28,345 nucleotides of DNA from a virus. Shown here piece by piece: positions 362-10,163 of this stretch (position 1 is the stretch's first letter; every line of letters begins with the position of its first letter). Under the pieces are notes generated by a model that did not search any database, had not been told where the DNA came from, and saw only the letters and a list, made by a program, of their open reading frames with translations. The stretch lies in the IMG/VR virus record IMGVR_UViG_3300033145_001481, positions 1 to 28,345 of that record. The stretch is one strand, 5' to 3'. Position numbers and translations under genes: made by a program.

Positions 362-1279
362 ATGTCACAGTTTGAGAACGAAATCTTAAAATTGGCAGAG
401 TCAACTCTTTTAACAAATAAAGAGATTGCAAGGATTGTAGGGTGCACGCCACGCACAGTAAATAAGTATGCCGGATCTTATGTTAGCCGGTGTAGATTAA
501 AAGTATCTGCAGAAGAAGATGCATTTGAAATTCAAAAAACAGTTTTACTCCCTGATATACATTATCCTCATTATGAACTGAGAGTGATGGATGCTGTTGA
601 AGAATTTATTATAGATTATCAACCAAATGAAATAGTTTATATGGGAGATCAACTTTCGTTAGATTGTATTTCCGGATGGAATAAAAGAAGACCTTTATTG
701 AAAGAAGGACAACGATTATTAAAAGAATATGATTTATTCAATGAAGATATATTAGATGTTCATGAAAATATTACAGAGTCAAATACTCGTCGAACTTTTT
801 TGATGGGTAATCATGAACAAAGAATTAAATGGTATTGTCAAGAACATCCAGAGTTAGATGGTTTTATAGACCTTGAAAGACATCTACAATTAAAAGAAAG
901 AGGGTATAATATTGTTGAATATAATGGTATCCATAAAGTTGGTAAATTAAATGTCATACATGGTTTTTATTGGAATAAGTATCATGCAGCAAAAACCCTT
1001 GAAGCTTTTGAAGGTAATGTAGTTTATTCCCATGTTCATAATCCACAAATGTATGCCAAGGTTACTCCAGTAGATCGTAAAGGTTATCATATGGCTACAT
1101 CATTACCTTGTTTATGTAATATAAAACCAGAGTATAAACAGAACGCACCCAATTTTTGGATAAATGGCTTTGGTATTGTAGAACATCTTCCAGCAACAGG
1201 ATTTTTCAATCTTTATACTATTATTATAATTGAAGGATCTTTTATGTTTAACGGTATTTATTATGGGAAAACTCTCTAA
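362..1279 (+). CDS. HTH-containing calcineurin-like metallophosphoesterase
   Basis: A 305-residue protein. Residues about 8-40 look like a helix-turn-helix (LTNKEIARIVGCTPRTVNKY). The rest carries the metallophosphoesterase signature in order: D65-x-H67 (LPDIHYPH), G95-D96-Q (YMGDQLSLD), G149-N150-H151-E, H200 (VIHGF), and H224-x-H226 in YSHVH, where the family usually has GHxH. This predicts a two-metal phosphodiesterase or phosphatase; the substrate (nucleic acid, nucleotide or phosphoprotein) cannot be told. GGGAG stands before the ATG. The last 17 bases overlap the homing endonuclease start, so the extreme C-terminus may have been altered by insertion. The HTH suggests DNA binding or self-regulation (inference). 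Confidence 0.85.
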   Translation: MSQFENEILKLAESTLLTNKEIARIVGCTPRTVNKYAGSYVSRCRLKVSAEEDAFEIQKTVLLPDIHYPHYELRVMDAVEEFIIDYQPNEIVYMGDQLSLDCISGWNKRRPLLKEGQRLLKEYDLFNEDILDVHENITESNTRRTFLMGNHEQRIKWYCQEHPELDGFIDLERHLQLKERGYNIVEYNGIHKVGKLNVIHGFYWNKYHAAKTLEAFEGNVVYSHVHNPQMYAKVTPVDRKGYHMATSLPCLCNIKPEYKQNAPNFWINGFGIVEHLPATGFFNLYTIIIIEGSFMFNGIYYGKTL

Positions 1280-1997
1280 AACATATAAAAAAAGTGGCAA
1301 TAGAAATGGGATGTATGGGAAAAAACATTCTGAAGAAACGAAAGAAAAAATGAGAAATAAACAAATAGGAAAAAGGCCAATGCTAGGAAAAAAGCATTCT
1401 GAAGAAACCAAAGAAAAAATTAGTATTTCAAAACTTGGTAAAACTATTTTAACAATAGAAAAAATAAAAGAAAAATTTCCAACGTTTTATAAAGAAGAAG
1501 AAATGAGATATAATACAGACAAACCAGGAGAAAAAGAAATACAAGTACATTGTAAAAATCATGACTGTGAAAATTCAAAAGAAAAAGGCGGATGGTTTAT
1601 TCCAACAGCAAGTCAATTTAAAAGCAGAAAAGATCATATAGAGCATGATGATGGTAACGGTGGATGTTATTTATATTGCTCACAAGAGTGTAAAGATGAA
1701 TGCGTGTTATATAATATAAAATCTGATCCACATAAGGAAGAAACTGAAAAATTATATACTGATTCAGAATATGATGTTTGGAGACAAACTGTGTTAGAAC
1801 AAGATAATTATGAATGTCAAAAATGCGGATCAAAAGAAGATCTACATTGCCATCATATTCAACCAGTTAAACTTGACCCAATGTTGGCATTAGACCCAAC
1901 TAATGGAATTGTTTTATGTCAAAAATGTCATTACGAAATTGGACATAAAACGGCCACAGAATGTTCTACTGGAAATTTAGCAAATCGAGTTTGTTAA
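1263..1997 (+). CDS. NUMOD3/HNH homing endonuclease
   Basis: A 244-residue protein from the ATG at 1263. A TTG at 1230 would add 11 residues, but the family-like sequence starts at MGKLSKTYKK. Two near-identical NUMOD3 DNA-binding repeats lie at residues 16-30 and 39-53 (core GKKHSEETKEKM). A Cys-rich middle follows. A C-terminal HNH nuclease has C185-x2-C188, H197-H198 (LHCHHIQPV), N214, C219-x2-C222-H and H228. Such free-standing enzymes cut sites in related phages and spread themselves. It overlaps the phosphoesterase 3' end, which is probably its insertion point. It has no clear ribosome site of its own, so translation may be coupled. It is Lys/Glu-rich compared with its neighbours. Confidence 0.9.
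   Translation: MGKLSKTYKKSGNRNGMYGKKHSEETKEKMRNKQIGKRPMLGKKHSEETKEKISISKLGKTILTIEKIKEKFPTFYKEEEMRYNTDKPGEKEIQVHCKNHDCENSKEKGGWFIPTASQFKSRKDHIEHDDGNGGCYLYCSQECKDECVLYNIKSDPHKEETEKLYTDSEYDVWRQTVLEQDNYECQKCGSKEDLHCHHIQPVKLDPMLALDPTNGIVLCQKCHYEIGHKTATECSTGNLANRVC
1317..1422 (+). repeat. Tandem NUMOD3-coding repeats in the HNH gene
   Basis: Two copies of about 38 bases (near 1317-1354 and 1385-1422) encode the motif GKKHSEETKEKM/I. They differ at only a few bases and are separated by about 30 bases. The repeat is coding and part of the NUMOD3 DNA-binding modules. Confidence 0.7.
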
Positions 1998-3723: not shown

Positions 3724-3836
3724 ATGAAATATTTATTAAGACAAATTATATACAAAGGGGATACATTTAAAGATTGATATAGAACAATCTTTACTAATTA
3801 GAAAATTGAAAACTATAATTTATGGAGGGTATAACA

Positions 3837-4097
3837 ATGGCAAATGTTTCCCCAGGAGTTTTTACAAAAATAATAGACTTGTCGTCATTTATTCAAGCAG
3901 TGCCATCGACGATAGGTTTTTTAACAGGATTTACACGAAAAGGACGAGACAATGAATTAGTATTGGCGAACCAAATATTACAGACTTTGGCAAGAATTAT
4001 GGTCAAGGGCCATATATCGCTTATAATCATCTGGGTGAATCAGGAGCATTATATTGGATGCGATTATTACCAGATGATGCTACATATTCAAATATAA
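3837..4097 (+). CDS. Tail sheath protein, N-terminal part (frame-broken)
   Basis: The ATG at 3837 follows GGAGGG. The first 42 residues (MANVSPGVFTKIIDLSSF...FTRKGRDNELV) are a typical sheath N-terminus. After about base 3962 this frame turns into non-sheath sequence and stops at 4095. The same bases read one base back give GEPNITDFGKNYGQGPYIAY, which is genuine sheath sequence and continues without a stop to 5785. The break therefore lies in 3954-3966. Only about 42 of the 86 residues here are real sheath. See the next entry for the remainder. Confidence 0.75.
   Translation: MANVSPGVFTKIIDLSSFIQAVPSTIGFLTGFTRKGRDNELVLANQILQTLARIMVKGHISLIIIWVNQEHYIGCDYYQMMLHIQI
3954..3966 (+). other. Frame break in the tail sheath gene
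   Basis: Coding switches from the ATG-3837 frame to the -1 frame between GAATTAGTATT and GGCGAACC. Upstream of this point the downstream frame is closed by TGA at 3953-3955. No classical slippery heptamer is present. T4 gp18 has about a dozen more residues between the equivalent points (before FGQPT), so a short deletion whose length is not a multiple of three fits best. Confidence 0.65.
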
Positions 4098-5785
4098 GAA
4101 TTGATTCACAATTAGCAGCTGGAGATGCAACTGCAAGCATCTCGATTACATATGTAGAGAGTTTAAATACACATAGTGAAATTCAAACCAACCTGGCAAT
4201 AGCAGGTGACACTAAACCAATTGCTTTTTTAACACCAATTGGAAGAGGTGACTTTTATAACAGTCTAGGTATTAGAATTACCGAACACTCAAATCCAACA
4301 CTATCGGGCGTTTATGTGCTTGATATATATGAAAAACAATCAGATGGTGATGATGTAATTATTGAATCATTTGATGTTTCATTTGATCCATTATCAGTTG
4401 ATAGTGCTGGAGATTCAATTTTCATTGAAAGTATTCTTGAAACATATTCAACTGTTTTAAGAGCACAAATGGTTTTAGCAAGTGGAGATTATACTTCAGG
4501 ATATGAACTTGTTGCTAAAATTTATGATAATGACATTGGAACAGTTACTGTTAATCTAACATCAGGATCAGCAACAATTAAAGATAATAAACAAGACTTC
4601 TCTGATTGGGAAACAGATCCAGAAACAGGCAATGCAGCATATGTTGTAGTTGCTAAAGATGCCAAAGGAAATGAGATTTGGGGTTGGATGGGTATCTCAG
4701 ATTCTGCTGAAGATGATGATATAGTTAAGGTATTTCCAGATAGAAATTTAACAGGCGGAACTCAAGGATGGAATGGAGCTGTTGCTAATTTTGACGTTAA
4801 TTCAACAGTTACATATCAAGTTAGAGAATCACACGCAAGTGTTGCATCAGCATTTTCATCTTCTGAACCTGTTCCATTAAAGAAAGGTTCCGAAGGTTCA
4901 TTACGCACAGTTACAGGTACCTTAGATACAGCCGAAGCTGAAACTCTATTAGAGCAAGGTTATAGTGGTATTATAACAAATCCAATAACTGGTAATGCTG
5001 AAGATTCTATTCTTGATACAGAAAGTGTTTATTTTACTTTAGTTTATGATGCAGGATACCCTTCTGATGTTAAGATTGCAATTAGCACTCTTTGTCAAAC
5101 AAGACGGGATTGTGTTGGTATACTTGATAATGGTGATAATAACACAGTTGCTGCAGCACTTACTGCTAGAGATAATACAAATACATTCAATAATTTTTAT
5201 GTTGCTTTATATGAATCATATAATAAAGTAGCAGATGCATTTACAGGGGAAGATGTATGGTTCTCACCAATTTATCATATGTCATACTTAATTCCTAGAA
5301 ATGATAATGTTTCTGAGATTTGGTTTGCTGCTGCAGGATTTAATAGAGCTTCTATTGATTCAATTAAGGAATTGAGATATAATCCAAGATTGGGACAAAG
5401 AGATCAGCTATACTTAAAACAACTAAACCCAATTGTTAAATTCAGTGCAGGTTATGTTGTTTGGGGACAGTTGACATCTCAAGCGAAACCAAGTGCTCTT
5501 CAAGATCTTAACATCGTTAGACTTGTTCTATATAGTAAGAGAGCTATTGAGCAATTTTGTAGTTTCTTTATCTTTGAACAAAATGATGCTATTACATGGG
5601 GTGAAGTATCAGGTGCAATTGTAGAATTTCTTGAAATAATAAAGAGCAAACGAGGACTTGATAATTATTCCGTAGAAGTTAGTGCAACTGACTATGAGAA
5701 GAAAACTAAGAAATTCCATGTCAATATTATTTTACAACCAACTAGAGCTGTAGAGCAAATTGAATTGAATTTCTTTATTCAGTAA
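4058..5785 (+). CDS. Tail sheath protein, main part (gp18-like; start lost through frame break)
   Basis: A 575-residue open frame from the first ATG; the true coding extends back to about 3965 and joins the N-terminal fragment. Sheath hallmarks are ESHASVASAFSSSEPVPLKKGS, RRDCVGILD, YLIPRNDNVSEIWFAAAGFNR, LGQRDQLYLKQLNPIV, and the terminal VNIILQPTRAVEQIELNFFIQ, which parallels the T4 gp18 end (FYIQPARSINYITLNF). The joined product would be about 649 residues against 659 for T4 gp18. The sheath forms the contractile outer tube. No ribosome site precedes 4058, so as written this part would be poorly translated. Sequencing error or recent mutation is likely. A terminator follows 16 bases after the stop. 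Confidence 0.85.
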   Translation: MRLLPDDATYSNIRIDSQLAAGDATASISITYVESLNTHSEIQTNLAIAGDTKPIAFLTPIGRGDFYNSLGIRITEHSNPTLSGVYVLDIYEKQSDGDDVIIESFDVSFDPLSVDSAGDSIFIESILETYSTVLRAQMVLASGDYTSGYELVAKIYDNDIGTVTVNLTSGSATIKDNKQDFSDWETDPETGNAAYVVVAKDAKGNEIWGWMGISDSAEDDDIVKVFPDRNLTGGTQGWNGAVANFDVNSTVTYQVRESHASVASAFSSSEPVPLKKGSEGSLRTVTGTLDTAEAETLLEQGYSGIITNPITGNAEDSILDTESVYFTLVYDAGYPSDVKIAISTLCQTRRDCVGILDNGDNNTVAAALTARDNTNTFNNFYVALYESYNKVADAFTGEDVWFSPIYHMSYLIPRNDNVSEIWFAAAGFNRASIDSIKELRYNPRLGQRDQLYLKQLNPIVKFSAGYVVWGQLTSQAKPSALQDLNIVRLVLYSKRAIEQFCSFFIFEQNDAITWGEVSGAIVEFLEIIKSKRGLDNYSVEVSATDYEKKTKKFHVNIILQPTRAVEQIELNFFIQ

Positions 5786-5801
5786 TTCTAACCAAAAAAA
5801 A

Positions 5802-5836
5802 GAGATGTTGGGCATTATACCCAGCATCTCTTTCTT
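5802..5836. terminator. Bidirectional intrinsic terminator
   Basis: GAGATGTTGGG (5802-5812) pairs with CCCAGCATCTC (5820-5830) in an 11-bp stem with one G-U pair and a 7-base loop. TTTCTT follows on the + strand, and the run of A at 5793-5800 gives a U-run on the - strand. It sits between the convergent sheath gene and the accessory cassette and can stop transcription from both. Confidence 0.85.
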
Positions 5837-5856: not shown

Positions 5857-6453
5857 CTAATCTAAATTTGGAATTGTTTTAAGTTCATCATTCATCTCTA
5901 TCTGATACTGCTGAAGATTTTGTGCAATGGTCATGGACTCATCAATAATATCTCCACTCATCATTGGAAATATATTCACAATAATAAAGTTTAGGCGATC
6001 AACACTTTGACCACGAATATATGCACCATGCCCTTTTTCATATTCCTCAATGAAGTTTTGATAATCATAAGATGTCTTCCTCATTGGATTGTGTATTGAT
6101 TTCAAAACCAATCCTAATTCATTAATTATAGATAAAAAGTACATACAGGACGAGGGTGATAATAAGGAATTATTCATTACAGCAAAGACCGGGGAATGTT
6201 GTACACCCATAGCGATTTTTTTCACTTGACTTAAATTAATATCTTTAAACTTAAATATACCGGCCTGTTCTCTCATTGATAGAAAACTACTTAAATTAAA
6301 GTTAGGTGGGATAGCAACAAACTCAACTGAAAAATAATTCTCGATGTGTGGAGTTTGTTCATCCATTCTTTCTTCCATATTTTCTTTGATCCTTCGTAAT
6401 TGTTTAATGTTTGCTGACTTGGATTCCGTGTAGTTTTCTGAAGGTGCTGCCAT
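5857..6453 (-). CDS. Unknown protein, last gene of the radical SAM cassette
   Basis: 198 residues from the ATG at 6453 (MAAPSENYTESK). The frame is open further upstream, but that part lies inside the preceding gene and reads like shadow sequence. The chosen start overlaps the previous gene by 50 bases and has no clear ribosome site, so it is uncertain. The protein has a charged helical N-terminus (IKQLRRIKENMEERMDEQ), a mixed middle (EFVAIPPNFNLSSFLSM; GVQHSPVFAVMNN) and an acidic C-terminus. It has no recognisable motif, signal peptide or membrane segment. Its position suggests co-transcription with the radical SAM gene. Confidence 0.55.
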   Translation of the reverse strand: MAAPSENYTESKSANIKQLRRIKENMEERMDEQTPHIENYFSVEFVAIPPNFNLSSFLSMREQAGIFKFKDINLSQVKKIAMGVQHSPVFAVMNNSLLSPSSCMYFLSIINELGLVLKSIHNPMRKTSYDYQNFIEEYEKGHGAYIRGQSVDRLNFIIVNIFPMMSGDIIDESMTIAQNLQQYQIEMNDELKTIPNLD

Positions 6454-6919
6454 GTTCCAAGTCAGAAAAGAACGAACCATCTTCATCGCCATAGTGAAAT
6501 ATGTATATAAAATGTTCATCTGATAGTTCCTCCAAAAATGTACGTGTATAAGCAATACATGCTTCTTCAACTTTTTTTTCTCTTTCTCTCCAGCATTGAT
6601 CAGACCATATCTCATGTTCTCTTAACTGTTGTATGGTTATCCCTTCTCTTTCACAAAACACATCTTCATACTCCCATATGTCAGGTATTTTGTGATTAAA
6701 TGTGACATATCCTTCTTCAAATTGCTCAGTTATTAGGTTGTTAGCGTTTTCATTACTTACTCTAATAGGTGTTTGGACAATAGCATCATTAAATATAACT
6801 TTGACGAATCTTTTTTCTATGAATTGTTTTACATCTTCAATAGTTTTAATCTCAAATGGCCATGCTACAATAAATGATGAACTTGATGAATTTGTAATAA
6901 AACCCGTTTTTATTTTCAT
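6404..6919 (-). CDS. FITNSSSSSF-motif protein, paralogue 1
   Basis: 171 residues beginning MKIKTGFITNSSSSSFIVAW. The ATG at 6919 overlaps the stop of the upstream paralogue (TAATG) and follows GGGAG, so the two are translationally coupled. The first 20 residues are nearly the same as in paralogue 2 while the rest is unrelated or strongly diverged. The body is acidic and aromatic (WEYEDVFCEREGITIQQLREHEIW), with helical stretches and an end YGDEDGSFFSDLEHGSTFRKL. I have seen similar N-termini in uncharacterised Bacillota proteins but know no proven function. The conserved head with a variable body beside a radical SAM enzyme resembles a recognition leader; this is inference. Confidence 0.7.
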   Translation of the reverse strand: MKIKTGFITNSSSSSFIVAWPFEIKTIEDVKQFIEKRFVKVIFNDAIVQTPIRVSNENANNLITEQFEEGYVTFNHKIPDIWEYEDVFCEREGITIQQLREHEIWSDQCWREREKKVEEACIAYTRTFLEELSDEHFIYIFHYGDEDGSFFSDLEHGSTFRKLHGIQVSKH

Positions 6920-7296
6920 TAACGATTCTCCCAACATTCTTCGATATGACTTGGATTTAATTCTATTTTAAAAATGTCTTCGAGTTCTTTTTTAACTCTT
7001 GATGTAAATGTTTTTAAAGTTTCATTGTCTCTCATTTCAGTATATGGTATTCCTACCATAATATCATCTTGATATGGCATACGAGAAAATCTTAAATCTG
7101 TTCCTTGAAAAAGATAATCAATATAATAACTTAAATCGTCTTGAACATCTTCTAATGATATATTTTTTTCATTTGATATTTTTTCTTGAATCATTTTAAT
7201 CTGTTCTTCTGTTATAAAACTTAAATCTATATAAGCTCCGATTACAACAAAAGATGAAGAACTTGAATTAGTTATAAAATCTGCTTTTATTTTCAT
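6919..7296 (-). CDS. FITNSSSSSF-motif protein, paralogue 2
   Basis: 125 residues beginning MKIKADFITNSSSSSFVVIG. The ATG at 7296 follows AAGGAGG. The sequence just before this start (GATCGTTA) nearly repeats that before paralogue 1 (AATCGTTA), a sign of duplication. The body is helical and acidic (EEQIKMIQEKISNEKNISLEDVQDDL) and ends ELNPSHIEECWENR. It has no catalytic motif or membrane segment. It lies 12 bases downstream of the radical SAM gene in the same operon. The function is unknown; it could be a substrate, partner or self-standing factor of the enzyme. Confidence 0.7.
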   Translation of the reverse strand: MKIKADFITNSSSSSFVVIGAYIDLSFITEEQIKMIQEKISNEKNISLEDVQDDLSYYIDYLFQGTDLRFSRMPYQDDIMVGIPYTEMRDNETLKTFTSRVKKELEDIFKIELNPSHIEECWENR

Positions 7297-7308
7297 TAAC
7301 GATCCTCC

Positions 7309-8355
7309 TTACAAATTTAGTGGACATTGATTTTGATTTTTTTCTAATAACGTTCTGAATGTATTAAAAGGTGGAGAATTTTGCCATAATGTAGTGATTG
7401 ATTTTTTATCTGTTATAGGTCTTGACCAAAAAACACGATCTGCAAAACTACAAGGCATAAAATGCATATCGGGTGTAATATATGCTGACATTCTTGCGCC
7501 TTCACATGTATCAATGGATAATTGTTGTAATTTATTACCCTGAGAATATTTAGTTGTATGATTAACCAAACAGCTATCCATACCAATTTTGAATTTACAT
7601 TTTGGTTTGAATATTAATTCTGAAAACTGTTGTAATTGATTGATGGTTGGGATTTTTGAATACATATATTTTGCTGCACCCTGTGGTTTAAATAAAAGAA
7701 AAATTACAGCATTTAACTTATCAATATCAACTTTTTCTTTCCATATATCTTTTCCTTCAAGCATATTCATTGCTATATTATGTGATATTCTAGAATAAAT
7801 AAAATGGATATTAGTTTTTATCCCAGCATTAATAAATTTTTCTATGCTAATATATGTATTATCCATTGTTTTTAATGTTATTTTATCATCTATTATTTCT
7901 TCATAAAAAATTTGGCTTACAGCTACAGCACCACAAAGTTTTGATAATTCAATTTCTTCTTCTGTTAAATTGATACCGCTTGTTGTATAATTAGGAACGA
8001 CTCTATTTTCTCTACAGTATTCAAGAATTTCTTTGAAGTTTTCATGCTTATTTGGATCACCCCTTCCACCCAATGCAACCTGATTAACATGATGCTTGAC
8101 CTCATCAATAATTTCTTTGAAGTTTTCCAATAACATATTGGGTTGATTTATATGTCCTTGATAGCAAAATTTACACTTGTTTTCACATGTACCCATTATA
8201 CCGATATCCAATAAGGATGGTAATTCTAATACAAAAGGATCTTCATTTCCATTAATTCCTTGAGTAATTTCCAGACCGGTTTTACTATTGAATAATATTG
8301 AATATTTATCATTCTGAAACCTCTTATCAAATATTTTCTCTAAATTTTTAAGCAA
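7309..8355 (-). CDS. Radical SAM enzyme with C-terminal cysteine-rich (SPASM-like) region
   Basis: 348 residues from a TTG at 8355, chosen because AAGGAG lies 6 bases before it. An ATG at 8406 would overlap the upstream gene more and lacks such a site. The cluster motif C57-x3-C61-x2-C64 (CENKCKFCYQG) binds the 4Fe-4S cluster and S-adenosylmethionine. GGRGDP at about 96-101 stands where the GGEP-like loop is expected. C-terminal cysteines at about 253, 262, 284, 302 and 344 (CEGARMSAY...MPCSF...CPLNL) suggest one or more auxiliary clusters of the SPASM/Twitch type used on peptide or protein substrates. The substrate is unknown. The gene sits in an operon with two proteins sharing a fixed N-terminus. 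Confidence 0.85.
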   Translation of the reverse strand: MLKNLEKIFDKRFQNDKYSILFNSKTGLEITQGINGNEDPFVLELPSLLDIGIMGTCENKCKFCYQGHINQPNMLLENFKEIIDEVKHHVNQVALGGRGDPNKHENFKEILEYCRENRVVPNYTTSGINLTEEEIELSKLCGAVAVSQIFYEEIIDDKITLKTMDNTYISIEKFINAGIKTNIHFIYSRISHNIAMNMLEGKDIWKEKVDIDKLNAVIFLLFKPQGAAKYMYSKIPTINQLQQFSELIFKPKCKFKIGMDSCLVNHTTKYSQGNKLQQLSIDTCEGARMSAYITPDMHFMPCSFADRVFWSRPITDKKSITTLWQNSPPFNTFRTLLEKNQNQCPLNL

Positions 8356-8361
8356 TTTAAT

Positions 8362-8367
8362 CTCCTT
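8362..8367 (-). promoter_or_regulatory. Ribosome binding site deciding a TTG start for the radical SAM gene
   Basis: AAGGAG on the minus strand is 6 bases from TTG at 8355 and overlaps the stop codon (8366-8368) of the upstream membrane-anchored gene, so translation of the two is probably coupled. Confidence 0.6.
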
Positions 8368-8602
8368 ATAACTTTTTAAAGGTTGATTGTTTGTCTGAAC
8401 TTTCACCTAATTTTTTAATATTAGATTCTTTATTATCTCCTTTTGGTTGTATTTCTGTTGTTTTCTCATCTTTTTCTTCTTTTGAAATTGGCAATTTAGA
8501 TTGGTTTTTTGGTTGATTTAATTCTTCTTTAATAGTTTCAATCTGCACTTTAACAGCTTCTACTGTCTTTTGTAATTCTTTCTTAATATTAGAAGTTGAA
8601 TC
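8366..8602 (-). CDS. C-terminal part of frameshifted membrane-anchored Lys/Glu-rich protein
   Basis: This frame is open back to about 8605 and ends at TAA 8366-8368. It reads DSTSNIKKELQKTVEAVKVQ... and then a low-complexity tail rich in Lys, Glu, Ser and Gln (KEEKDEKTTEIQPKGDNKES). Heptad-like hydrophobic spacing at the start suggests a short coiled coil. A GTG at 8548 could give a 60-residue protein, but there is no ribosome site, so it is read here as the continuation of the 8589-8759 frame. Joined across the five-base run at 8603-8607, the product is about 130 residues. Confidence 0.5.
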   Translation of the reverse strand, partial: DSTSNIKKELQKTVEAVKVQIETIKEELNQPKNQSKLPISKEEKDEKTTEIQPKGDNKESNIKKLGESSDKQSTFKKL

Positions 8603-8759
8603 TTTTTACTTGTTTAGTTATAGTTGATTGTTGCTGAGTTTCAATTGCCATTTCACCTTTATCTTTGTTATCATCATCGTTAAAAATTATATTATACATG
8701 AAGATACAAAAGATAATGGTTCCAATTCCGAATCCTCCACTACTGCTTTTACTTGACAC
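8589..8759 (-). CDS. Small membrane protein, N-terminal part (frameshifted)
   Basis: 56 residues from a GTG at 8759 with GGAGG nine bases before it. The order is a Ser/Gly-rich start (SSKSSSGGFG), one hydrophobic segment (IGTIIFCIFMYNIIF, residues about 12-26), then an acidic turn (NDDDNKDKGE) and a Gln-rich stretch ending at TAA 8589. Deleting one A from the run at 8603-8607 keeps the frame open into the Lys/Glu-rich tail, so the intact gene was probably about 130 residues. This predicts a single-pass membrane protein with a long charged cytoplasmic tail. It is the first gene of the minus-strand cassette. Function unknown. Confidence 0.6.
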   Translation of the reverse strand: MSSKSSSGGFGIGTIIFCIFMYNIIFNDDDNKDKGEMAIETQQQSTITKQVKRFNF

Positions 8760-8819
8760 TATTATACCTCCTTAAAAAAATTAGATAAATACTTTATTCA
8801 ATAATTAATATATATAGTT

Positions 8820-8837
8820 GTCAATTTATTAATTGAC
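8820..8837. promoter_or_regulatory. Palindrome in the divergent intergenic region (operator candidate)
   Basis: GTCAATT-TATT-AATTGAC is a perfect 7-bp inverted repeat between the divergent genes starting at 8759 (-) and 8902 (+). Read on the minus strand it includes TTGACA, a possible -35 box, with AT-rich sequence after it. A regulator binding here could control both directions (inference). Confidence 0.4.
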
Positions 8838-8870: not shown

Positions 8871-8901
8871 CTTAGTGTATGTCTTTCACGGTAAGGATAT
8901 T

Positions 8902-9423
8902 ATGAATCTTGAAAAATATTTACTTAAAGTACAATCTAAAGAGGCAGTAGGTCCTTTTGCGATAGATTCTTTCCCGCAAAAAAAGAAGAAAAGAAAAAAA
9001 CAAATAATTCGATCAATTTACCCAAATGAAAACTGGATCGCTATTGAGGAAAGAAGGGCTATGATCGACCTCGATGGAACTATCCATAAATATTCAAAAG
9101 GTTACGCTGATGGTCAAATTTATGATGATCCATTTGCAGGAGCAAAAAAAGTTATTGATTGGTTAAAAAGCAAAGGATATGAAATAGTTATATTTACTAC
9201 TAGAGCATCAAAAGAAAATGCTAAAGATGTTGGCGGTGATCATGAAACAGAAATTGCTAATATTGAAAATTGGTTATCGGATAATGATATTTATTTTGAC
9301 CGAGTGACTGCTGAGAAACTAGCTGCTGATTTTTATATTGATGATAAAGCAATATTCATTAAAAATGGAAATTGGGATGCAGTTATGAAAACAATTAAAA
9401 TGAGGATGAAATATAGCCTTTAA
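8902..9423 (+). CDS. HAD-superfamily phosphatase
   Basis: 173 residues from ATG 8902 (TAAGGA before it). The N-terminal 45 residues end in a strongly basic stretch (KKKKRKK at 27-33). The HAD core follows: motif I MIDLDGT with D56 and D58, motif II Thr at 99-100 (IFTTRAS), Lys near 139 and motif IV DFYIDD with D147/D148. This predicts a Mg-dependent phosphohydrolase acting through an Asp-phosphate. Phage relatives include polynucleotide-kinase 3'-phosphatase-like and nucleotidase-like proteins; the substrate cannot be fixed here. There is no kinase domain. The gene lies between the sheath and tube genes and is first in the operon that includes the tail tube. Confidence 0.8.
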   Translation: MNLEKYLLKVQSKEAVGPFAIDSFPQKKKKRKKQIIRSIYPNENWIAIEERRAMIDLDGTIHKYSKGYADGQIYDDPFAGAKKVIDWLKSKGYEIVIFTTRASKENAKDVGGDHETEIANIENWLSDNDIYFDRVTAEKLAADFYIDDKAIFIKNGNWDAVMKTIKMRMKYSL

Positions 9424-9440: not shown

Positions 9441-10163
9441 ATGGCAATAAAAAATTCTTTTACAAATGTGCCAAATAACAGATTAACTCGTAACTTTGGT
9501 GGTACGGTTGCTGGAGTTGCTGATCCATACGTTACTGGGTATCATTTTATTTATTTTGCTAAACTACCACCAGCATTACCTGATTATGCACAATTACCAG
9601 ATAATGGTACAATCAAAAATCTTTTGGCTGGTGCATGTTTATCAGTTACTCCACCAGGTGGAACTCTAAATAAAGTAGAATTTACTGGATTGGGTGGAAT
9701 TAAATGGGCGGTTCCAGCAAATATTGATTATGGAAATTCTGTTTCAGTTAAATTCTTGGAATTTAATGGGATACCTATTTTAAATATTTTCCATGGTTGG
9801 ATGAAAATGATAAGAGATTATAGAAGTGGCACAACAGGTCTTACTGATAACGCCGATGGTCTTGGTTATACAAAAGCTACATATGCGGGAATTATGTATT
9901 ACTGGACTACAGCACCTGATGCAAGAACTGTTGAATATTATGCTGCATATGATGGCATATTTCCAACAAAAGATCCACAAGATTTATTTACGAGTGATGT
10001 TGAAACCATAGGCAGATTAGACACAGAAATTGAATTTAATGTAGATTACATCTGGCACGAAGCTTGGACGAAAGAGAAATGTCAAGCTCTAGCTGAAGAA
10101 GTATATGGTATTAAAGAAAGTGTTATTGATGTTTATGGTACAAGAGTTGATGAAGCTACATAA
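9441..10163 (+). CDS. Tail tube protein (gp19-like)
   Basis: 240 residues; ATG after GGAGG, 17 bases downstream of the HAD gene. Recognisable tube features are PPGGTLNKVEFTGLGGIKWAVP, the helix region HGWMKMIRDYRSG, and the C-terminal part GIFPTKDPQDLFTSDVETIG...EIEFNVDYIWHEAW, which matches the tube-protein pattern of distant T4-like phages. It is longer than T4 gp19 (163 residues). Hexameric rings of this protein stack to form the inner tail tube through which DNA passes. The position before the assembly and wedge genes fits. Assignment is from pattern recognition. Confidence 0.8.
   Translation: MAIKNSFTNVPNNRLTRNFGGTVAGVADPYVTGYHFIYFAKLPPALPDYAQLPDNGTIKNLLAGACLSVTPPGGTLNKVEFTGLGGIKWAVPANIDYGNSVSVKFLEFNGIPILNIFHGWMKMIRDYRSGTTGLTDNADGLGYTKATYAGIMYYWTTAPDARTVEYYAAYDGIFPTKDPQDLFTSDVETIGRLDTEIEFNVDYIWHEAWTKEKCQALAEEVYGIKESVIDVYGTRVDEAT

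Follow-up and report, generated by a model that had tools for sequence, protein, structure and literature searches.

A phage radical SAM enzyme paired with an N-terminal tag carried by otherwise unrelated proteins

What would a phage do with a radical S-adenosylmethionine (SAM) enzyme encoded beside two proteins that begin alike and are otherwise unrelated? The question is raised by the IMG/VR virus record IMGVR_UViG_3300033145_001481, whose 28,345 bases, analyzed whole and here called the window, carry a contractile-tail structural module. A minus-strand operon at 5857-8759, the cassette, has the sheath gene on one side and the HAD-phosphatase and tube genes on the other, and lies where an earlier note made from the sequence had placed it. 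We located its open reading frames (ORFs), which correspond to a small membrane-anchored protein, the radical SAM enzyme, a 125-residue protein, a 171-residue protein, and a 252-residue ORF. Our answer is that the cassette is probably a dedicated radical SAM system, one that recognizes a protein tag at the N terminus and probably modifies it.

The enzyme and the tag

The enzyme (7309..8406, minus strand; 365 residues from the GTG start as called) belongs to the radical SAM superfamily, scoring 39.2 bits against Pfam Radical_SAM (PF04055; cut-off, 29.5), and matches phrog_7293 at 4e-26. The earlier note was right about its identity, its CxxxCxxC motif, and its late cysteines: CENKCKFC (CX3CX2C) spans residues 74 to 81, and C74, C78, and C81 are invariant in the relatives, as are C279, C301, C319, and C361. 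The four late cysteines are consistent with one SPASM-type auxiliary cluster, and as we read the alignments they correspond to the first such cluster of SPASM enzymes. The cysteines of the second cluster are missing from the phage enzyme and kept in bacterial relatives, which have the full set. With four late cysteines only, the window enzyme falls outside the SPASM subfamily as Pfam defines it (PF13186, 14.8 bits versus a cut-off of 21.5), whereas three bacterial relatives pass both PF13186 and TIGR04085. The phage enzyme therefore looks like a SPASM-derived protein with one cluster. Every NCBIfam match of the window enzyme is far under its cut-off, which puts it outside the maturase families named there. 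Some of the bacterial enzymes (L095, L092-L094, L122, and L251) space their radical SAM cysteines widely, at about CX7CX6C, and this may be the reason why Pfam Radical_SAM misses them or scores them weakly.

An AlphaFold2 (AF2) model of the enzyme was obtained with a predicted local distance difference test score (pLDDT) of 93.6. The closest structures are SuiB (Z 25.6; root mean square deviation, 3.5 over 312 residues) and SkfB (Z 23.5), followed by PqqE (Z 20.1), anSMEcpe (19.9), viperin (19.3), and CteB (19.1); the PDB holds no sequence match to either the enzyme or the 171-residue protein. One helix and three strands precede the barrel and the SuiB alignment begins at residue 18, a region for which no search aimed at a RiPP recognition element (RiPP, ribosomally synthesized and posttranslationally modified peptide) was made. 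The modeled enzyme is thus closest to the peptide-altering kind of radical SAM protein, with a RiPP-maturase-like fold, in agreement with the enzyme type proposed earlier; of the checks proposed with it, Radical_SAM and a SuiB/SkfB-like model were recovered and a SPASM domain above cut-off was not. An auxiliary metabolic or viperin-like (nucleotide) enzyme could be argued from a weak pVip match, the Z score of viperin, and the metabolic reading given to radical SAM gene clusters of Campylobacter phages (PMC2853527), but SuiB and SkfB have distinctly higher scores, with alignments that run from residues 18 to 26 through to the end, the late cysteines form a SPASM-type set of four, and the recurring partner gene encodes a tag protein. 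The pVip match reaches 22 bits only and the cassette has no kinase gene, and we find this alternative scarcely credible.

Downstream of the enzyme gene lie the two tagged proteins, both on the minus strand. Protein 1 (6919..7296; 125 residues, MKIKADFITNSSSSSFVV...) starts at an ATG preceded by the Shine-Dalgarno sequence AAGGAGG, carries the tag MKIKADFITNSSSSSF (7249..7296), and has a body assigned to cluster 1, with 13 members. Protein 2 (6404..6919; 171 residues, MKIKTGFITNSSSSSFIV...) has the Shine-Dalgarno sequence GGGAG, the tag MKIKTGFITNSSSSSF (6872..6919), and a phrog_7397-like body (2.9e-12), and its start codon overlaps that protein 1 stop codon which precedes it (TAATG). The two share their first 16 residues only, and the bodies fall into different clusters. 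Because a Shine-Dalgarno sequence stands directly upstream of each MKIK, the true starts are likely 7296 and 6919 rather than that of the longer MLGESL version in the ORF list, and the two FITNSSSSSF proteins of the earlier note are real. In the AF2 model of protein 2 (pLDDT 91.8), residues 1 to 10 of the tag have a pLDDT of 55, which indicates a flexible tag on a well-ordered body. The model had no significant Foldseek match (best E value, 0.44) and VIA Z scores of at most 4.6, so the fold gives no function. In the family of protein 2 (A4), the C-terminal His171 and Glu155 are invariant and Asp145 and His156 nearly so; these residues possibly form a site for metal binding or catalysis in this fold, for which the PDB offers no significant match.

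The tag comprises 16 N-terminal residues, MKIKxDFVTNSSSSSF, with the consensus M-K-I-K/R-x-D/G-F-V/I-T/S-N-S-S-S-x-x-F/Y, and is nearly invariant across 202 distinct proteins. BLAST divides their bodies into 60 clusters, a figure to be taken as approximate since a distant relationship between some clusters is possible. Among the 87 distinct tag proteins of an early set, N10, S11, and S12 were invariant (87/87), S13 and F7 were each present in 85, position 16 was Phe in 81 and Tyr in 6, and positions 14 and 15 were variable. Lengths range from 48 residues (a fragment at a contig edge) to 882, most exceeding 100, and the bodies include BspA leucine-rich repeats (BspA-LRR) and a BRCT domain. Across the clusters no core outside the tag is held in common, and Pfam and PHROGs searches with 60 representatives returned no common function and one phrog_132 match. 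Serine codons swap between TCN and AGY at every tag serine, an exchange that requires two changes and hence points to selection at the protein level, and codon agreement at identical tag residues is low (47.6% within a record, 43.3% between records), so the tags have not been copied as DNA. On the strength of this codon diversity we rejected DNA-level accounts such as a homing target or gene conversion.

In the mechanism that we favor, the enzyme would recognize the flexible, exposed tag on the two otherwise unrelated proteins and modify tag residues by radical chemistry, most likely within the invariant N10-S11-S12-S13, the probable site since conservation is strictest there. The bodies would be effector or sensor modules that can replace one another and that gain competence through this common modification. 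Possible chemistries include epimerization, oxidation to an aldehyde, and ether or carbon-carbon links. Thioether formation of the sactipeptide or ranthipeptide type is unlikely given the lack of a conserved cysteine in the tag (Cys occurs at position 14 in 5 of 87), and it was set aside insofar as the tag is the modified part. Alternatively, the tag might be a leader or recognition element only, with the enzyme docking there and altering body residues as RiPP maturases do with leader and core. SuiB and SkfB, the closest folds, modify residues outside the leader, and conserved body residues such as Glu155 and the C-terminal His171 of the phrog_7397 family would offer targets; however, some 60 body clusters have nothing in common in which a core could be seen, and the strictest conservation falls inside the tag. 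We regard a leader-only role as unlikely. As a separate observation, a radical SAM protein on Methylobacterium indicum plasmid pVL1_2 (L268:7584-8909), adjoining an AAA+ ATPase, has a tag-like N terminus of its own, RIGHATNSSSSHSIV; it is possibly a tag-enzyme fusion or else bears a sister motif, NSSSSHS.

Pairing of enzyme and tag in phages and bacteria

Enzyme and tag recur together in phages and bacteria alike; the first condition that the earlier note set for its refutation, a lack of any such tendency, did not arise, and the FITNSSSSSF proteins are regular partners of the enzyme. Starting from the enzyme, we collected 80 viral loci (1.03 Mb); 52 contain tag genes, and all 78 tags share the enzyme's strand, 77 of them no more than 2 kb downstream. 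In the lineage of the window itself, a gap of 0 to 20 bases often separates the enzyme from the start of the first tag gene. When virus records were instead found through the tag, 20 of 24 encoded exactly one enzyme (E values from 1e-41 to 1e-152), and many held tandem arrays of three to nine tag proteins. All seven complete genomes of phage isolates that encode the enzyme (Matisse, RCIP0008, RB16, CfP1, GAP161, Margaery, and Vibrio D479) hold two to five tags, against none for a reversed control pattern. Adjacency alone would suit stable enzyme partners, adaptors or regulators of an enzyme whose true substrate is another molecule, as well as it suits substrates. But the ratio of up to nine tag proteins to one enzyme per phage and the flexible, exposed tag suit substrates better; it is the tagged proteins themselves that the data suggest as substrates, and a partner role appears very unlikely to us. 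The further idea that the system acts on host or virion proteins found no support in any of the evidence gathered.

The tag pattern was confined to the enzyme's immediate neighborhood in four bacterial genomes. We then surveyed 394 bacterial genomes of the order that contains a Ruminococcus flavefaciens assembly (G004), with thresholds of E ≤ 1e-30 for the enzyme profile and E ≤ 1e-9 for a strong tag match. The enzyme profile matched nine genomes, and strong tag matches occurred in eight, all among those nine, while the enzyme was absent from 385 of the 386 genomes without a strong tag match (Fisher P = 7e-16, uncorrected for shared ancestry). The ninth genome has a stop-interrupted enzyme and, 4.4 kb away, a weak, stop-interrupted tag. 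All 12 strong tag matches lay within 3 kb of an enzyme. A loose DNA pattern applied to 391 genomes at class level gave mostly chance matches and three true tags only, each adjoining an enzyme.

We also asked whether tag and enzyme vary together across 93 records. When tags were compared only between proteins of unrelated bodies, tag and enzyme identities were correlated (Mantel r = 0.45; 0 of 2,000 permutations as high; P = 5e-4). Scored at ten variable positions, tag agreement was 83.6% on unrelated bodies within one record, 72.4% on bodies of one cluster with enzymes less than 40% identical, and 64.2% where neither body nor enzyme was alike. Tag variation thus goes with the enzyme and not with the body, as expected of a recognition element, and shared phage ancestry can contribute to the correlation. 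These results bear on the proposal that the tag is a localization signal, such as the capsid targeting of T4 internal proteins, with the enzyme an incidental neighbor. A short N-terminal tag common to diverse small proteins in tandem arrays would be in keeping with such a signal, but the tag adjoins the enzyme on bacterial chromosomes and plasmids, outside phages, and strict co-occurrence, close conserved pairing, and tracking of the enzyme all weigh against it; we hold localization to be highly improbable.

Seven bacterial loci (L123, L256, L257, and L264-L267) place the pair in an operon with an Avs2-like ATPase of the STAND (signal transduction ATPases with numerous domains) class. The common layout is a STAND ATPase with an effector, a protein of ∼120 to 140 residues (for which L265 has no annotated gene), a tagged protein of ∼131 residues, and the radical SAM enzyme; the effectors are metallo-β-lactamase (MBL)/trypsin, SMEK, or transmembrane modules. 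The Bacillota loci L123 and L257, whose ATPases match Avs2 at 2e-24 and 1.9e-16, additionally have an MBL gene (PADLOC Avs1a, 2.8e-79; LmuA, 1.7e-53) and a trypsin-like domain, and the L256 ATPase is Avs2-like at 1.9e-22. On alphaproteobacterial plasmids (Agrobacterium L264 and L265, Rhizobium L266, and Rhodobacter L267) the ATPases carry a SMEK domain (PF21941, down to 3e-42) and match Avs2 down to 1.5e-21, and the tag reads MKxKxDFVSNSSSTSF. Judged by homology only, the seven operons are putative defense systems, and together they form a candidate undescribed anti-phage system of Bacillota and alphaproteobacterial plasmids. The window cassette has no STAND ATPase among its genes and so lies outside Avs/AVAST. 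In the enzyme tree the window-type phages form one supported group and the other phage, bacterial, and STAND lineages are interleaved, which fits repeated transfer of the enzyme-tag pair. The STAND operons suggest that the phage tag-protein arrays, too, may serve conflict. We offer more tentatively, as a possibility, that this is a horizontally spread modification system in which one enzyme places the same modification on the tags of phage arrays and bacterial STAND operons, with tags acting as sensor, decoy, or counter-defense on both sides.

Several points weigh against our proposal of a tag-modifying system. Modification of the tag is predicted rather than observed, the tag could act as a recognition leader only, and phylogenetic non-independence inflates all the statistics. 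Of the 80 viral loci collected by way of the enzyme, 28 have no tag nearby, although those fully checked are all fragments of at most 52 kb. Four tag-bearing records of 56 to 122 kb, maybe incomplete, have no detected enzyme, and the best candidate exception among such records is G404 (L180), with 122 kb and four tag genes away from the contig ends. Finally, T4-like phages have enzyme and tags ∼20 kb apart, a distance implying that the enzyme can act in trans.

Borders and neighboring genes of the cassette

The sheath gene (3822..5785, plus strand; phrog_19666, 9e-55; Pfam Phage_sheath) is frame-broken into ORFs 3822-4097 and 4058-5785 and lacks part of its N-terminal region, while relatives have a single ORF of 644 to 678 residues; the break is either an assembly error or real decay. 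Between sheath gene and cassette, a terminator scan recovered the bidirectional terminator described before (5796..5836; 20-nucleotide arms 5796-5815 and 5817-5836, 85% complementary), which marks the end of the minus-strand operon. The adjoining 252-residue ORF (5857..6615, minus strand) probably has its true start inside the called frame, since the call overlaps protein 2. It is present as noted earlier but is not an isolated unknown: this "REQAGI" family recurs without a tag in the cassette slot. Most of its relatives are tagless and one possible relative (L064:13218-13574; BLASTP 3e-6 over 63 residues) bears the tag, which suggests that the tag has been gained or lost.

At the other end, the membrane-anchored protein (8366..8759, minus strand) is frame-broken near 8600 into ORFs of 56 and 60 residues; the 56-residue ORF, the membrane-anchored protein of the earlier note, is the front part of a protein of ∼130 residues, and L002 and L003 carry one ORF of 138 residues. 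An inverted-repeat search recovered the palindrome of the divergent region as AT-rich repeats (8791..8837), and promoter-like matches there are no commoner than in shuffled sequence. Next come the HAD-type phosphatase gene (8875..9423, plus strand), assigned by library searches, and the tail tube or virion structural protein (9441..10163, plus strand; phrog_21400, 2.7e-11; phrog_45 tail tube, 4e-4). The cassette does separate sheath from tube, but with the phosphatase gene in between it is not the sole insert. In relatives L004, L090, and L091 the slot between sheath and HAD genes also holds nucleotidyltransferase-like genes, which makes it a site of variable cargo in this lineage of phages. 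L090, with at least six tag genes, and L091 are filed as Lokiarchaeota and Thermoplasmatales metagenome-assembled genomes, yet their contigs are of the window's lineage (sheath, tube, and HAD genes); the filing reflects either host or misbinning. Elsewhere in the window (362-1997), a phosphoesterase-like ORF precedes one that has GKKHSEETKEKM repeats and an HNH-like C terminus, resembling a homing-endonuclease insertion.

Comparison with known systems

RiPP maturases of the radical SAM/SPASM type (SuiB, SkfB, PqqE, CteB, and ChlB) resemble the enzyme in fold, in auxiliary-cluster cysteines, and in having a dedicated ribosomal partner encoded alongside. They differ in acting on short precursors made of an N-terminal leader and a variable C-terminal core, an organization absent from the tag proteins, which are 48 to 882 residues long and join unrelated bodies to an N-terminal tag; moreover, no exporter or protease was seen in the cassette and the phage enzyme lacks the second auxiliary cluster. 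The anaerobic sulfatase-maturating enzyme (anSME), also a radical SAM/SPASM protein and likewise near the enzyme model, has as its target a short motif within a large protein. It serves one protein family, whereas here ∼60 body clusters share a motif, and at the N terminus.

Pairs of a radical SAM enzyme and a target peptide are of a known kind; what seems new is the spread of the tag over unrelated proteins, phages, and STAND operons. It would mean that a dedicated enzyme serves a single short tag at the N terminus of dozens of unrelated proteins, in a system common to phages (including isolates such as RB16 and Matisse) and bacterial STAND-type operons. Hundreds of unannotated phage proteins would gain a testable function, the chemistry may be new, and the STAND-type operons, present in named strains (Agrobacterium tumefaciens Ach5 pAt), may be a new anti-phage class. 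We found the enzyme-tag system undescribed in the family libraries and literature searched, a literature coverage outside which most subscription papers fall; NSSSSSF returned no paper and SSSSSF unrelated papers only. The PHROG families of the enzyme and of protein 2, phrog_7293 and phrog_7397, are both listed as of unknown function, with no recorded link in the library output, and Slopekvirus enzymes are annotated only as predicted peptide-modifying radical SAM proteins (PMC9960720).

Among defense systems, Avs/AVAST with MBL nuclease-trypsin pairs (PMC12799240) matches the operons of the cassette's bacterial relatives in MBL, trypsin-like, and Avs2-like STAND genes; the relatives add a gene for ∼125 residues, the tagged protein, and the radical SAM enzyme, and the word "radical" is absent from the text of that paper. 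The closest published idea is that of the vWA-MoxR/FtsH ternary conflict systems, in which a radical SAM gene is thought to modify a neighboring "peptide-effector" (PMC7159879). In the passage on them, these systems appear without a common N-terminal tag, phages, or STAND ATPases, and what they share with the cassette is a predicted peptide-modifying radical SAM enzyme set in a conflict system.

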